A stretch of DNA of 43,750 bases from Verrucomicrobiota bacterium (GTDB taxonomy: Bacteria > Verrucomicrobiota > Verrucomicrobiia > Limisphaerales > UBA1096). Under the pieces are notes generated by a model. The model did no database searches and was not told the origin of the DNA. It saw only the letters and a list, made by a program, of their open reading frames with translations. The position numbers were made by a program, and so were the translations under genes. Of this stretch, positions 35,854 through 42,051 are shown one piece after another; position 1 is the stretch's first letter; each line of letters opens with the position of its first letter. The stretch is from contig JACNJE010000098.1 in the NCBI GenBank assembly GCA_014382705.1, positions 1-43,750 of the forward strand, written 5' to 3'.

Positions 35854-38525
35854 GCCGAATGGCGCTGATAAAATGGAACTGGGTTTTTGCGCTGGCGCTG
35901 GCCGTGCCGGCGGCGCTTGGCCAAGCGGTCGATCCGAAGGACCAAGCCCGGGCCAAGCTGGCGTTCGACGTGGCCAAGCGATACTTCCGGGACGGCATGT
36001 TTGCCACGGCGGTCGGGCGACTGGACGCCTTTGGCAAGGCGCATCCCGGCTCGATGCATCTTGCCGAGGCGGTGCTGCTGGAGGGGCAGGCCCGGTTTCA
36101 GCTTGGCCAATTCGAGGCGGTGGCAACGGATCTGTCGGCTGGGCTGTCCGGGGCCGGGGCGTGGACGGATCGTTACCTGTTCTGGATCGGCGAGGCGCAG
36201 TTCGCGCTGGGCCGATTCGGGGAGGCGGCGGCCCGTTACGGCCAGTTGATCGAAAAACATCCGGGGTCGGAGCGGGCCTTGACGGCGGCGCTTGGCCAAG
36301 CGCAGTCACTCCACAAGCTGGGTAGTTTGAAGGCGTGCATCGCCGCGCTCGAGCCGGCGGACGGGCCGTTCCAGCGCGCGGCCAGCGCGCGGCCGGGCGA
36401 TCCGTTAATCGTCGACGGACGGCTGCTGCTGGCCAATGCCTACTTCGAGCTGGGCGAACTGGGGGCGGCACGGCTGCTCCTCGAGAATCTGCCCGGCACC
36501 GGCCTGTCGCCGGAGCGGTTCTGGCAGAAGCACCACATGCTGGCCTCGGTGTACCTTGGCGAAGCCACCCTGAACCGCGCGTTGAGCAGCGCGACCAACC
36601 TGGTGCAACTGGCCAAGGGCATCGCCAACCCGGTGTATGCTGCGAGGTCGGTCGATTTTCACGGCGACGTCCTGCGGCGCATGAGCCAGCCAGACGATGC
36701 CGTCGTCCTGTACGAGCGGAATCTAGCCACCAACGTCCCGCCCGACTGGCGCCGGTCGGCGCTGTTGAAAATTGTCGATCTTTACGTCGAGGAAAACCGG
36801 CTGACCAACGCGGTGCAGCGGTTGCAGCGCCTATTCATCCGTCACCCCGGCGATCCGGCGACCGGGCTGGCGCACCTCACGCTGGGCGAGCTGCGGCTGC
36901 GCCAGTTTTACGGGTTGCCGGACGCGAGCCGCCTCCAGTCCACCAACCTGCTCAGCGAGGCGCTGGGCCATTTTGACGTCATCCTGCAGGGCGGCACCGA
37001 GCCGGATCTGATGGGCAAATCGTGGCTCGGGCGCGGCTGGGCGCTTTGGGAATGGGGCCGCCTTTCCGGCAAGGGATTTCAGTTGAGCCTCGCGCAGCAG
37101 GCCTACTCGAACGCCGTCAACCGGCTGCCGCGGTCGCGGGAACAGGCGATCGCGCAGTTCAAGGTGGCCGACTGCCTGTTCCACCAGGCGGATCATGCCG
37201 AGGCGGCTACCAAGTATTGGGCGGCAATCGGCATCGCCACCAACACGGTCGGGTTCAATAACCAACTCGTGGACCAGGCGCTGTACCAGATCGTGCGCAG
37301 CGGTGTCGAGCAGCAGGACTTGCCCAGCGCCAGCCGGGCCGTGGGCCACCTCATCGACTGGTTCCCGGACAGATTTTACAGCGACCGCGCCCTGCTGATC
37401 TACGGGCAGGCACTCAACCGGGAGGGCAGGGCGTCCGAGTCGCGCACCGTGCTGGCCTCATTCGCCAAGATGTTCCCCAACTCCACCCTGTTGCCCGAGG
37501 CGCAATTGGCGGTCGCCCGGACGCACGTGATGGATGGCAGCTGGGTGTCGTCGATCCTCGAGTACGACCGCTGGGTGACCAACTATTCGGCGCACCCGGC
37601 GCTGCCGCAGGCGGAGTTCGACCGCGCCTGGCTGAACCACCAGGCTGGCAACCCGGCGCGCGCCTTCCAGCTGTTCACCAATTACGTGGTGCGTTTCCCG
37701 ACACACCCGCTCGCGCCGGTGGCGCAAAGATGGATCGCCGACCGCCAGTTTCAGTCCGGCAAATTCGCCGAGGCCGAGCACGGCTACCGCCGCCTGTTCG
37801 AGAACACCAACCTGCTGGCCAACGCCCGCGCCATGGAGTGGGAGGCGCGGCTCAGTGCCGGGCGCGCCGCCTTTTTTCGGCAGGAACACGCCGCCGCCGA
37901 GCGGCTATTGGCCTCGGTGGTCAATGCCACCAACGCGCCCGCCGCCGACCAGGCGCGTGCGGAGTTTTACCTGGGCGACGTGGCCGCCGACCAGACCGCA
38001 CGCACCCCCACCAACCTGCTCGACGCGCTGCCGCATTATCAGCGCGTAGCGAACGAGTTCACCGGCAGCCCGCTGCATTCCTTGGCATGGGGCCGCGTCG
38101 GCGATTGCCATCTGCAGTTGACCAACCTCGTCACGGCGGCCGAGGCGTACCGGGTCGTGGTTGGGCAGTTGGGCACCGACGTGGCCACACGCAGCCAGGC
38201 CGGCCTCGGGCTGGCACGCGTGCTTGATGAGCAGGCCAAGGCTGCCGCCGACACGGCGGAGCGCGATAAACTGCTGCAACAGTCCCTCGACCAATGCATG
38301 AACATTGTCTTTGGCGGCAACCTCCGCTCCGCCAGCGAGAAGATGGATCCGTTTTGGGTGAAGGAGGCCGGCCTGATGGCCGGGCGCTTGGCCAAGCGGC
38401 TCGGGCGCGCGGAGGAGGAACGCAACGTTTACTCGCGCCTGGCCAGCGAGCTGCCCGGCATGCCGCTTTGGAAGGCCAAGCTCGACGCCCTCGAGGCCAA
38501 GCCGGGTGCGCCCGAGAACCGGTGA
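35850..38525 (+). CDS. Large secreted TPR-repeat protein
   Basis: 891-aa ORF. Signal-like WVFALALAVPAALGQA and multiple TPR-like units (AKRYFRDGMFATAVGRLDAFGKAHPGS; AARYGQLIEKHPGSERALTAALGQAQSL). ATGA-type overlap with uvrA. Confidence 0.8.
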   Translation: MSRMALIKWNWVFALALAVPAALGQAVDPKDQARAKLAFDVAKRYFRDGMFATAVGRLDAFGKAHPGSMHLAEAVLLEGQARFQLGQFEAVATDLSAGLSGAGAWTDRYLFWIGEAQFALGRFGEAAARYGQLIEKHPGSERALTAALGQAQSLHKLGSLKACIAALEPADGPFQRAASARPGDPLIVDGRLLLANAYFELGELGAARLLLENLPGTGLSPERFWQKHHMLASVYLGEATLNRALSSATNLVQLAKGIANPVYAARSVDFHGDVLRRMSQPDDAVVLYERNLATNVPPDWRRSALLKIVDLYVEENRLTNAVQRLQRLFIRHPGDPATGLAHLTLGELRLRQFYGLPDASRLQSTNLLSEALGHFDVILQGGTEPDLMGKSWLGRGWALWEWGRLSGKGFQLSLAQQAYSNAVNRLPRSREQAIAQFKVADCLFHQADHAEAATKYWAAIGIATNTVGFNNQLVDQALYQIVRSGVEQQDLPSASRAVGHLIDWFPDRFYSDRALLIYGQALNREGRASESRTVLASFAKMFPNSTLLPEAQLAVARTHVMDGSWVSSILEYDRWVTNYSAHPALPQAEFDRAWLNHQAGNPARAFQLFTNYVVRFPTHPLAPVAQRWIADRQFQSGKFAEAEHGYRRLFENTNLLANARAMEWEARLSAGRAAFFRQEHAAAERLLASVVNATNAPAADQARAEFYLGDVAADQTARTPTNLLDALPHYQRVANEFTGSPLHSLAWGRVGDCHLQLTNLVTAAEAYRVVVGQLGTDVATRSQAGLGLARVLDEQAKAAADTAERDKLLQQSLDQCMNIVFGGNLRSASEKMDPFWVKEAGLMAGRLAKRLGRAEEERNVYSRLASELPGMPLWKAKLDALEAKPGAPENR

Positions 38526-39412
38526 TGCTGGGCCTGACCGACTTGGCGGCCATCGCCGCGGAACACGCCGCCGACCTTGAGGCCGAGGTACGCCCGTTCG
38601 ACATCGCCGGGCGGATCAACGTTCCCTCCGCCCAACCGGCGATCATGGGGGTGATCAACCTGTCGGCTGATTCGTGGTACCGCGAAAGCATCCGCACCAC
38701 CGTCGAGTCGGCCGTCGAGCGAGGCCTCGAGCTGCGCGAGCAGGGGGCCGACATCATCGACATCGGCGCGGAATCGACGCTTGGCCAAGCGCAGCGGGTC
38801 GCCGCCGCCGAGCAGCAGCAACAGCTCCTGCCGGTGGTCGAGCAACTCACCGCCGGGGGCGTCACTGTCTCCGCCGAGACGTACAACGCCGACGTGGCCA
38901 AGGCCTGTCTCGAGGCCGGGGCCAAGGTGCTGAACCTCACCGGCACCGCCGACAGCGAGGCCATTTATCGGCTCGCCGCCGAACACGATGCCGCGGTGAT
39001 CATCTGCTACGTCGCCGGAGACCATGTCCGCGACGTCGGTGACATCCCGCTCGACGACGATCCCATCCCGCGCATGGCCGACTACTTCGCGCGCGAGATC
39101 GAGACCGCTGCACGGTGCGGCTTGGCCAACGGCTTCGTCGATCCGGGGCTGGGCTTTTACTACCGCAACCTGCGGGACAGCTCGGTGCGGATACGCCACC
39201 AGATGAAAACCTTCCTGAACGCCTTCCGCCTTCGCACACTGGGCTGGCCGGTCTGCAACGCCCTGCCACACGCCGTCGAATGCTTTGGAGAGGAGGTGCG
39301 CTGCGCCGAGCCGTTTTTCTCCGTGCTCGCCGCGCTCGGCAAAACCGACCTGTTCCGCACACACGAGGTCCCCCGCATCCGCGCCGTGCTCCAGACGCTT
39401 GGCACTTACTGA
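38525..39412 (+). CDS. Dihydropteroate synthase-like protein (divergent)
   Basis: AIMGVINLSADSWYRESIRTTVESAVERGLELREQGADIIDIGAEST resembles the DHPS N-terminal signature. Later VNPG-like FVDPGLGF. Confidence 0.72.
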   Translation: MLGLTDLAAIAAEHAADLEAEVRPFDIAGRINVPSAQPAIMGVINLSADSWYRESIRTTVESAVERGLELREQGADIIDIGAESTLGQAQRVAAAEQQQQLLPVVEQLTAGGVTVSAETYNADVAKACLEAGAKVLNLTGTADSEAIYRLAAEHDAAVIICYVAGDHVRDVGDIPLDDDPIPRMADYFAREIETAARCGLANGFVDPGLGFYYRNLRDSSVRIRHQMKTFLNAFRLRTLGWPVCNALPHAVECFGEEVRCAEPFFSVLAALGKTDLFRTHEVPRIRAVLQTLGTY

Positions 39413-39462
39413 GCCGGGGGCAAGCGGCCAAAGCTCTAGAATCCCCACCCTGAAAATCATGT

Positions 39463-39523
39463 AAATCAGCGTTCATCTGCGTCTTTGATAGTCGTTCATT
39501 GGGACGCAGATGAACGCTGATTT
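39463..39523. repeat. Perfect 21-bp inverted repeat (hairpin), member or relative of the CGCAGAT repeat family
   Basis: AAATCAGCGTTCATCTGCGTC (39463-39483), 19-nt spacer, GACGCAGATGAACGCTGATTT (39503-39523). Confidence 0.95.
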
Positions 39524-39551
39524 TGCGGATTACAATGATCGCCATATTTTG

Positions 39552-40796
39552 TTATTTACCAAATAGTTTAGCGAGTCTTGTTCTCCAAGTTTGCAATATT
39601 GGCTTTGTTGAATTTTGTTTATCAAAAAAAGGAGGCTCAACGTTGATTGCGAATTTGTACTTACAAGTTGGGCATATGGCGGTCTGTTCATTGGATTTAT
39701 TCGACAGGCTGATTTCAGTCCCGTCTGCTGGGCATGTCACGACAGAGTATGCTTCTGCTGATGGAGGAGGGAAGCGGTCTTGGTTTTTTGATAAGCGGTG
39801 ACAAATGTATTTTGTATGCTGGATAAAGGCATTTGCCTCGTCACGAATGGGCTTTAATTCATTGGCCATCCGATTAATTTCTTGTTGTTTCTGCATGCTT
39901 TGTAAAAACCTCAATGCAGGATCAGGTACATTGTCTTCTGCAATAGCTACAGCTTTCTTCTGGAGCATATTCAAGCTCTCATGACTCGACTCTAAGAAAG
40001 AGTTGAGTGTCTTGAGAAATGCATGATGTGTATAGACCGCGTGTTTGTTAAGTTCTGCCAAGGTGAGTTGAATCCTTGAGTTGATGGTATAAAATTCTGA
40101 AACTGATTCGTGTATTGCCTCTTTACGGTGATGTCGTATGTCGTAGTGGTGTCCGTATCTAGCATCACAAGTCTGAATCGCTTTTTCTGCTTCTGCGTTT
40201 AGCCCTTGCAACGCATCCGATTCGGAAATATTTCGCATCCTACAAACGAGGCGATATACAAACGCAAATTGGTTTCGATTTAGATAGCCACATGCAGTTG
40301 TTTTCGTGATCGTGCGGGTTCCGTTATCAATTGGTTCATATCGAATATTTGTAGTCTTGCAACCGTTCAACATGAGCTTCCCTAGTCCGAGAAAAACGGT
40401 AGTGATGTCAGTAAGAATCTCGTTTTCCATATCTATGGGAAGTTTGATATGTTTTACTTGGAGCCATTTATGGCAAACCTCGTGACACACAACGGCGATA
40501 AGAGCATCGGAAGAATCCATAAAGTCTGGATCGATAGTGATGAATACATCCGTACCACCTGTGGAGAGATCAATTTGACCCCCAACTTTTTCTTTTTGCT
40601 TCGCAACGGAAACGATAAACGTAAAACCGTGTAATCCTATGAATTGGGCAATGTCTTTAGCTAGACTCTGTATGGACAAATGATTGTGAGTACGAGCAAT
40701 TAACGGAGGCATGACGCGGTAATTCACATTGGCACCAGTCCTTTGCTCTAGAAGTATTAGCTTCTCAACGAAGGCTTTAGCAAATTGGTCAGACAT
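39552..40796 (-). CDS. Putative HExxH metallopeptidase-like protein with C-terminal zinc ribbon, hypothetical
   Basis: AVVCHEVCHKWLQV (HExxH) followed by ENEILTDITT. C-terminal CPADGTEI...ICPTCKYKF. The gene is visibly AT-richer than its neighbours. Confidence 0.6.
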   Translation of the reverse strand: MSDQFAKAFVEKLILLEQRTGANVNYRVMPPLIARTHNHLSIQSLAKDIAQFIGLHGFTFIVSVAKQKEKVGGQIDLSTGGTDVFITIDPDFMDSSDALIAVVCHEVCHKWLQVKHIKLPIDMENEILTDITTVFLGLGKLMLNGCKTTNIRYEPIDNGTRTITKTTACGYLNRNQFAFVYRLVCRMRNISESDALQGLNAEAEKAIQTCDARYGHHYDIRHHRKEAIHESVSEFYTINSRIQLTLAELNKHAVYTHHAFLKTLNSFLESSHESLNMLQKKAVAIAEDNVPDPALRFLQSMQKQQEINRMANELKPIRDEANAFIQHTKYICHRLSKNQDRFPPPSAEAYSVVTCPADGTEISLSNKSNEQTAICPTCKYKFAINVEPPFFDKQNSTKPILQTWRTRLAKLFGK

Positions 40797-40935
40797 AAAA
40801 ACTAGGGGGCAAGATGTGTGTGCGAAGCCACTTTGCACGAGGTCTTAATCAAGAGCTAACATAAAGAAAGGGGCTGAAGTCGTAAGGGAGCTTAGTCCGA
40901 GCAATTCGCCCAATGTGATAGTTGGTTTACCACTA

Positions 40936-42051
40936 TTACGGCACGCCGGTGGGAAAGGTGTGGGTTAGCGGGGTGGCCAGCTTGACGCCGTGCGCATCCT
41001 GCAGCTCGAACGCCGCCTGTTTCACGGCGTTACGGGCGTTGATGATCTCGTGCTCGGCCGTGAGGTTGTACAGCAGGCGCCACGTCACGGCATGGTCGCC
41101 GTTCTCGATCAGCCGGGAGACGCCCTCCCGGTCGGGGTTGATGGCGGCGGTGAGTTTGCAGGCCGTCTTCCAGACGTCGAGCAGATACGCCTCCGCTGTG
41201 GCTGCGCCGGTGTCGTAACCGATGTTGAACTCGACAAAGTCGTAGATTCCCTTGCGGGAGTCGCTGGTGAGGATCTCGACCTGCCGGTTCAACAGCAGTG
41301 AGTTGGGGATGGTGATGTTGTGGTTGCGGATGAGATCGCGCAGCAGCGTCAGCGTGGTGCGGGTCTCGAGCACGATCGCGAGGATGTTTTCGTCCGGGAT
41401 GCGGATGACGTCTCCCCGCTCGACGTTGCCGTTGCTGATCACGATGATGCCGCTGATGAAATCCTTCAGCCAGTAGTCCTTCGTCGTGAAGACCAGCACG
41501 GCCAACGCCCCGAGAAAACTGGTTGTCTGCAGCCAGCTTTCGAGTCTCCAGATGTTCAGGAAGATCAGTCCCGAGACGATCCCGAGCACCAGCAGCGCGA
41601 TCAGTCTCAGGTTGTTCGACGTGTACGACTCGATGTAGATGGCCGTGCCCTCGACCTCCCGTTTGCGGCCGTATTTCTTGAGGATCAGTGAGTGGGTGAA
41701 TTGCCAGATGAGATACGTCAACAACACCAGCAGCCCGGTGTGGCTGATGTTGGAGCCGAGCTGGAACCGGAAGGCCACGGCCAGCAGGTAAGTCAGGAAA
41801 AGAATTGCGTTCAAAATCCTTAACAACCGGAGCTGGGACGGCGCCGCGCCGACGGTCTGCACGCTCAAGTGGCTGATGAGTTGTCTGCCAAAAAACAGGA
41901 TCAGCAGGTTGATGGTGAACGTGACGTAATGGATCGGCTCGAGTGTGGTGAAGTATCCCAGCAACCCCTCCAGCAGGGAGTCGGATTCTTTAATCGAATC
42001 GACGACGTTGCGAGCCGTGTTTGCGGAGGCAACAATGTTGGTTTCCTCCAT
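40936..42051 (-). CDS. MscS-family mechanosensitive ion channel
   Basis: Multiple TM segments, then LGALAVLVFTTKDYWLKDFISGIIVISNGNVERGDVIRIPDENILAIVLETRTTLTLLRDLIRNHNITIPNSLLLNRQVEI. Confidence 0.88.
   Translation of the reverse strand: MEETNIVASANTARNVVDSIKESDSLLEGLLGYFTTLEPIHYVTFTINLLILFFGRQLISHLSVQTVGAAPSQLRLLRILNAILFLTYLLAVAFRFQLGSNISHTGLLVLLTYLIWQFTHSLILKKYGRKREVEGTAIYIESYTSNNLRLIALLVLGIVSGLIFLNIWRLESWLQTTSFLGALAVLVFTTKDYWLKDFISGIIVISNGNVERGDVIRIPDENILAIVLETRTTLTLLRDLIRNHNITIPNSLLLNRQVEILTSDSRKGIYDFVEFNIGYDTGAATAEAYLLDVWKTACKLTAAINPDREGVSRLIENGDHAVTWRLLYNLTAEHEIINARNAVKQAAFELQDAHGVKLATPLTHTFPTGVP

Follow-up and report, generated by a model that had tools for sequence, protein, structure and literature searches.

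An AT-rich segment carrying a single HExxH metalloprotease gene between the DHPS-like and mscS genes of a Verrucomicrobiota bacterium, and GxxExxY genes bounded by matched inverted repeats in its order

An AT-rich segment between two convergent genes

The window analysed here is a 43.75-kb stretch of DNA, contig 169 of a 4.0-Mb metagenome-assembled genome (MAG) that is 90.7% complete and consists of 181 contigs. In this window, a DHPS-like gene and a convergent mscS-type channel gene are separated by a segment that contains a hairpin and only one substantial ORF, an intact minus-strand gene for an HExxH protein (Table 1).

Table 1. Features of the insertion locus and related GxxExxY loci
Feature	Position	Strand	Remarks
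Pterin-binding (DHPS-like) gene, left neighbour	38525..39412	+	PF00809, E 1.3e-30; 65-91% identity in congeners; frame and stop intact
Inserted segment, ~1.52 kb	39416..40939		Ends uncertain by about 7 bp each; aligned with the empty sites of five congeners; GC 42.7%
Perfect 21-bp inverted repeat, 19-nt loop	39463..39523		Two dispersed repeat ends back to back
HExxH metalloprotease gene	39552..40796	-	414 aa from the likely ATG; 428 aa from an upstream GTG at 40838
Upstream region of the HExxH gene and right end of the insert	40797..40939		No recognisable repeat end
mscS-type channel gene, right neighbour	40936..42051	-	PF00924, E 9e-7; 69-90% identity in congeners
GxxExxY (PF13366, PD-(D/E)XK) loci	L105-L133 (order-wide); L078-L094 (genus); G000:C60:25073-25592; G000:C24		

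The 1523 bp between the stop codons of the two convergent genes (39413-40935) had a GC content of 42.7%, whereas the other 1523-bp windows of the contig averaged 62.8%, with a minimum of 58.9%. The GC profile changed sharply, from ~65% to ~42% across 39.45-40.93 kb, and the composition edges fell at the gaps that separate the segment from its neighbours. Codon positions gave the same picture, with a GC3 of 0.40 in the HExxH gene and of 0.86 in both the TPR gene and mscS. The initial annotation had described a stretch encoding an HExxH protein as AT-richer than both flanks and had proposed sliding-window measurements of GC and codon usage; the coding assignment and the AT-richness were both borne out, and the measurements indicated a foreign composition. 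The start that it gave, 39540, did not hold, as the composition edge lies at ~39416-39422. Together with the alignment to the empty sites described below, the composition edges place the end of the insert at ~40932-40939.

The absence of an iterated palindrome, TTGGCCAA, had also been offered as a marker of foreign DNA. This word is truly iterated in the window, with 56 copies against 0.85 expected, and is comparable in kind to the HIP1 repeat of cyanobacteria. It is indeed missing from the insert, although the flanking copies reported at 38778 and 42751 are in fact those at 38781 and 42754, and nearer ones lie at 39122 and 42683. At the density of the window, however, a stretch of 1523 bp would lack the word with P = 0.14, so its absence is uninformative; moreover, 19% of such windows in the contig contain no copy, and a longest TTGGCCAA-free gap of this size has P = 0.42 under random placement. 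This argument for a foreign origin was therefore given no weight and was dropped.

Empty sites in the genus

The locus was compared among 21 genomes of the genus, comprising the source genome and 20 congeners. The mscS gene was detected in 19 of the 21 genomes (the source genome included), and in all 17 congeners with both neighbours assignable to a single contig, the DHPS-like gene and mscS were adjacent and convergent, with the site between them empty. The gap between the two genes measured 2-25 bp in 14 of these congeners and 68, 120, and 211 bp in the other three, showing that the insertion separates two convergent genes that almost abut in most relatives. In G018 and G012, the closest relatives as judged by mscS identity, the gap was 2 bp in the alignment used, and the mscS frame extends slightly into the end of the DHPS-like gene. 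In the source genome, the mscS stop codon lies at the insert junction, which shortens the C-terminus by a few codons relative to these two congeners. Since the DHPS-like gene retains its stop codon and mscS terminates at the junction, neither neighbour is interrupted by the insert, which is probably neutral for both.

The HExxH gene itself was found in none of the 20 congeners, and a second search with a family profile gave the same result. The empty sites at the joint between the DHPS-like gene and mscS imply that the insert entered there in one lineage. The overlap between the flanks at this joint was 3 bp (GGC) against G018 and a single C against G016, G008, and G007, and a target-site duplication is not claimed. 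At this locus, composition and an empty site constitute good evidence of acquisition; the absence of an iterated palindrome does not.

The HExxH metalloprotease

The encoded protein consists of a zincin domain with an HExxH...E..TD pattern, a predicted helical region, and a C-terminal zinc ribbon, which is of the Cys4 type. Nine residues were invariant in the 14 sequences aligned (H119, E120, H123, E140, T143, D144, G151, G184, and Y185), and the pattern likely fits a zincin in which a glutamate (E140) is the third ligand. The closest relative in the genome collection was a 423-amino-acid protein from a proteobacterial MAG, similar in length and in domain layout, zinc ribbon included, and with 29% identity over the full length. 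Remoter relatives, mostly of 257-300 amino acids and containing the zincin part only, were present in a small number of genomes from the phylum and the order, as well as on a single Bacteroidota plasmid. In a small protein tree, the protein grouped with the proteobacterial MAG protein (support 0.96), apart from six homologues of its own order.

Against the SprT-like profile (PF10263), the protein scored 20.3 bits, below the cut-off of 25.6, and was therefore not filed as a member; its other relatives likewise fell under the cut-off. It belongs to an uncurated family that is SprT-like only at the borderline. It shares with SprT/Spartan a similarly placed HExxH zinc motif and a zincin domain followed by a zinc-binding C-terminus, but it differs in that the third ligand is apparently the Glu of E..TD instead of His, and in a helical region of >100 residues between the two domains, predicted with low confidence. 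By analogy with the SprT/Spartan layout, the protein would most likely act as a cytosolic, substrate-tethered protease, a role assigned with low confidence, and its targets are possibly nucleic-acid-bound proteins. Profile searches of the PDB for a solved relative gave insignificant matches only, and a structure predicted from two sequences had a mean pLDDT of 44, too poor to be used. Matches to Cas3-HD in PADLOC and NCBIfam were weak and located in the helical region, and this identity was rejected.

A dispersed hairpin repeat

The hairpin has perfect 21-bp arms (39463-39483 and 39503-39523), and its fold was much more stable than those of shuffled sequences (z = -4.8). The perfect hairpin had been recognised in the initial annotation as the left boundary of the insert; the hairpin is as described, but it lies inside the insert and not at its edge. 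With up to two mismatches allowed, 12 of the 21 genomes compared contained the arm sequence, and the reversed control gave no match at all. Facing pairs, 59-145 bp apart, occurred at several loci. The hairpin is thus a dispersed repeat of the genus and does not mark a boundary peculiar to the insert. The single Rfam match, MIR4374, was far under the gathering score and driven by the hairpin. The hairpin may terminate transcription between the two convergent genes.

The arms also match the repeat ends that bound a GxxExxY gene, of the PD-(D/E)XK class, at C60 of the source genome; in particular, the right arm, GGGACGCAGATGAACGCTGATTTTGCGGATTA, is nearly equal to the left end of that element, GGGACGCAGATAAACGCTGATTTTCAGGATTA. 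The hairpin therefore looks like two ends of a dispersed repeat class, either brought in by the insert or added to it. Relative to the other pairs, the two ends in the window have an inside-out arrangement, and both are located on the same side of the metalloprotease gene.

Two further occurrences of such repeats were observed. At the end of contig C405 of G006 (L057, 1580-2064), an AT-rich (~38% GC), apparently coding stretch directly adjoins two paired ends of this repeat class. Another genome of the phylum, distantly related (G069:C67:87320-93470), contains several copies of the 19-bp repeat word in the same orientation, about 100-120 bp apart.

GxxExxY genes bounded by matched inverted repeats

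Across the order, 27 of 28 GxxExxY loci had matched inverted repeats (score >=30), compared with 1 of the 52 control positions taken from these loci. The repeats typically consist of three tandem units of 8-10 bp, and they differ from locus to locus but are matched between the two ends. Within the genus, inverted repeats surrounded the gene in all 11 AT-rich GxxExxY copies tested, L079 and L084 being only marginally above shuffled sequences, and none were found around four copies at one conserved genus locus. At C24 of the source genome, the repeat-gene unit lies within 581 bp, where G012 has 18 bp, which provides a clean empty site for one unit.

The site at C60 varied among congeners: a 145-bp relic remains in G012, a gene-less pair of 94 bp in G004 and G015, and a broken gene in G017. 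At one site (L063, L039, L042, L050, and L084), congeners differ in carrying the intact unit with its GxxExxY gene, a broken gene, a 145-bp relic, or 94-bp repeat pairs with no gene. This site is flanked by a purine nucleoside phosphorylase-like gene and a sugar isomerase/AP-endonuclease-like gene (named by eye). Read as a series, these sequence forms suggest an apparent decay into short hairpin elements.

The locus-specific, matched repeats around the GxxExxY genes suggest that these are mobile or homing-like units, a proposal that is testable. Such a unit resembles a minimal mobile or homing element whose mechanism is as yet undescribed; the searchable papers contained no description of these repeats or of GxxExxY mobility, which does not prove novelty. 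The larger value of the present analysis is this lead on GxxExxY genes, which are widespread, have no known function, and in this order are bounded by such repeats. The repeat-bounded unit deserves follow-up; the acquisition in the window is itself an ordinary gene acquisition.

Origin of the insert

As a whole, the locus is best explained, and with high probability, by the insertion in one species of a ~1.5-kb foreign segment with a single metalloprotease gene between the DHPS-like gene and mscS. The recent acquisition proposed in the initial annotation, for which a search for empty sites in related genomes had been suggested, is supported by the empty sites in the 17 congeners, by the absence of the gene from all 20, and by the separation of the protein from its own-order homologues in the tree. 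No high-identity donor was found, and "recent" therefore rests on the empty sites and the composition.

No recombinase, transposase, or other mobility gene was found in the insert, and no inverted repeat joined its two ends (score 14, shuffled mean 14). An insertion sequence or transposon was rejected on the basis of this lack of terminal repeats and the single substantial ORF. An integron cassette, which would carry an attC site 3' of its gene, was rejected because the perfect 21-bp palindrome of the hairpin does not show the RYYYAAC/GTTRRRY core pair (sequence read by eye). A phage, plasmid, or ICE island was likewise rejected, since the window contains no tRNA, no integrase was found, and the searches returned no phage or viral-contig relatives and one weak plasmid match only. 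In view of these negative results for a recombinase, a transposase, a tRNA, and a repeat linking the two ends, the route of entry is an inference: the incoming DNA would most likely have been joined by illegitimate recombination, the flanks overlapping by 0-3 bp, and the hairpin would have arrived with the insert or been added afterwards. The insert resembles species-specific genomic islets in its foreign composition, the empty site in relatives, the single cargo gene, and the intact neighbours, but differs from them in lacking a tRNA, an integrase, or a clear target duplication. It is a clear case in which one gene, for an uncharacterised zincin, was acquired without visible mobility machinery.

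The near-identity between the right arm and the C60 element, and the clean insertion of GxxExxY elements in the source genome, as at C24, would also fit a segment that is the cargo of a small repeat-bounded element of this type, the hairpin being its end beside the end of a neighbouring element and the right end having been lost. We consider this unlikely. The hairpin arms share ~9-bp end units with the GxxExxY (PF13366/TIGR04256) units of the genus and nearly equal one of those ends; however, the insert contains no GxxExxY gene, its repeats lie on one side only and do not bracket the cargo, no repeat occurs at the right end, the two insert ends share no inverted repeat, and the two repeat ends are inside-out relative to other pairs. 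A somewhat more doubtful proposal still is that the hairpin represents the ends of an undescribed minimal mobile element, in which one GxxExxY PD-(D/E)XK protein is enclosed by inverted repeats with about three units of 8-10 bp, and that such ends can also mobilise neighbouring orphan genes like the metalloprotease.

Acquisition of a foreign segment is favoured far more strongly over an ancestral gene lost in all other congeners. Distant homologues do occur in the same order, but they sit on another branch of the family; since the insert is also foreign in composition, and independent clean losses to near-overlapping genes would be needed in every other lineage, such a loss is very improbable. 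An assembly artefact or contamination is scarcely to be expected either: the genome is a metagenome assembly in 181 contigs and its composition shifts sharply at the insert, but one contig runs on both sides into a single conserved syntenic block, and the insert fits precisely into the gap between two genes and contains a repeat found in the genus.
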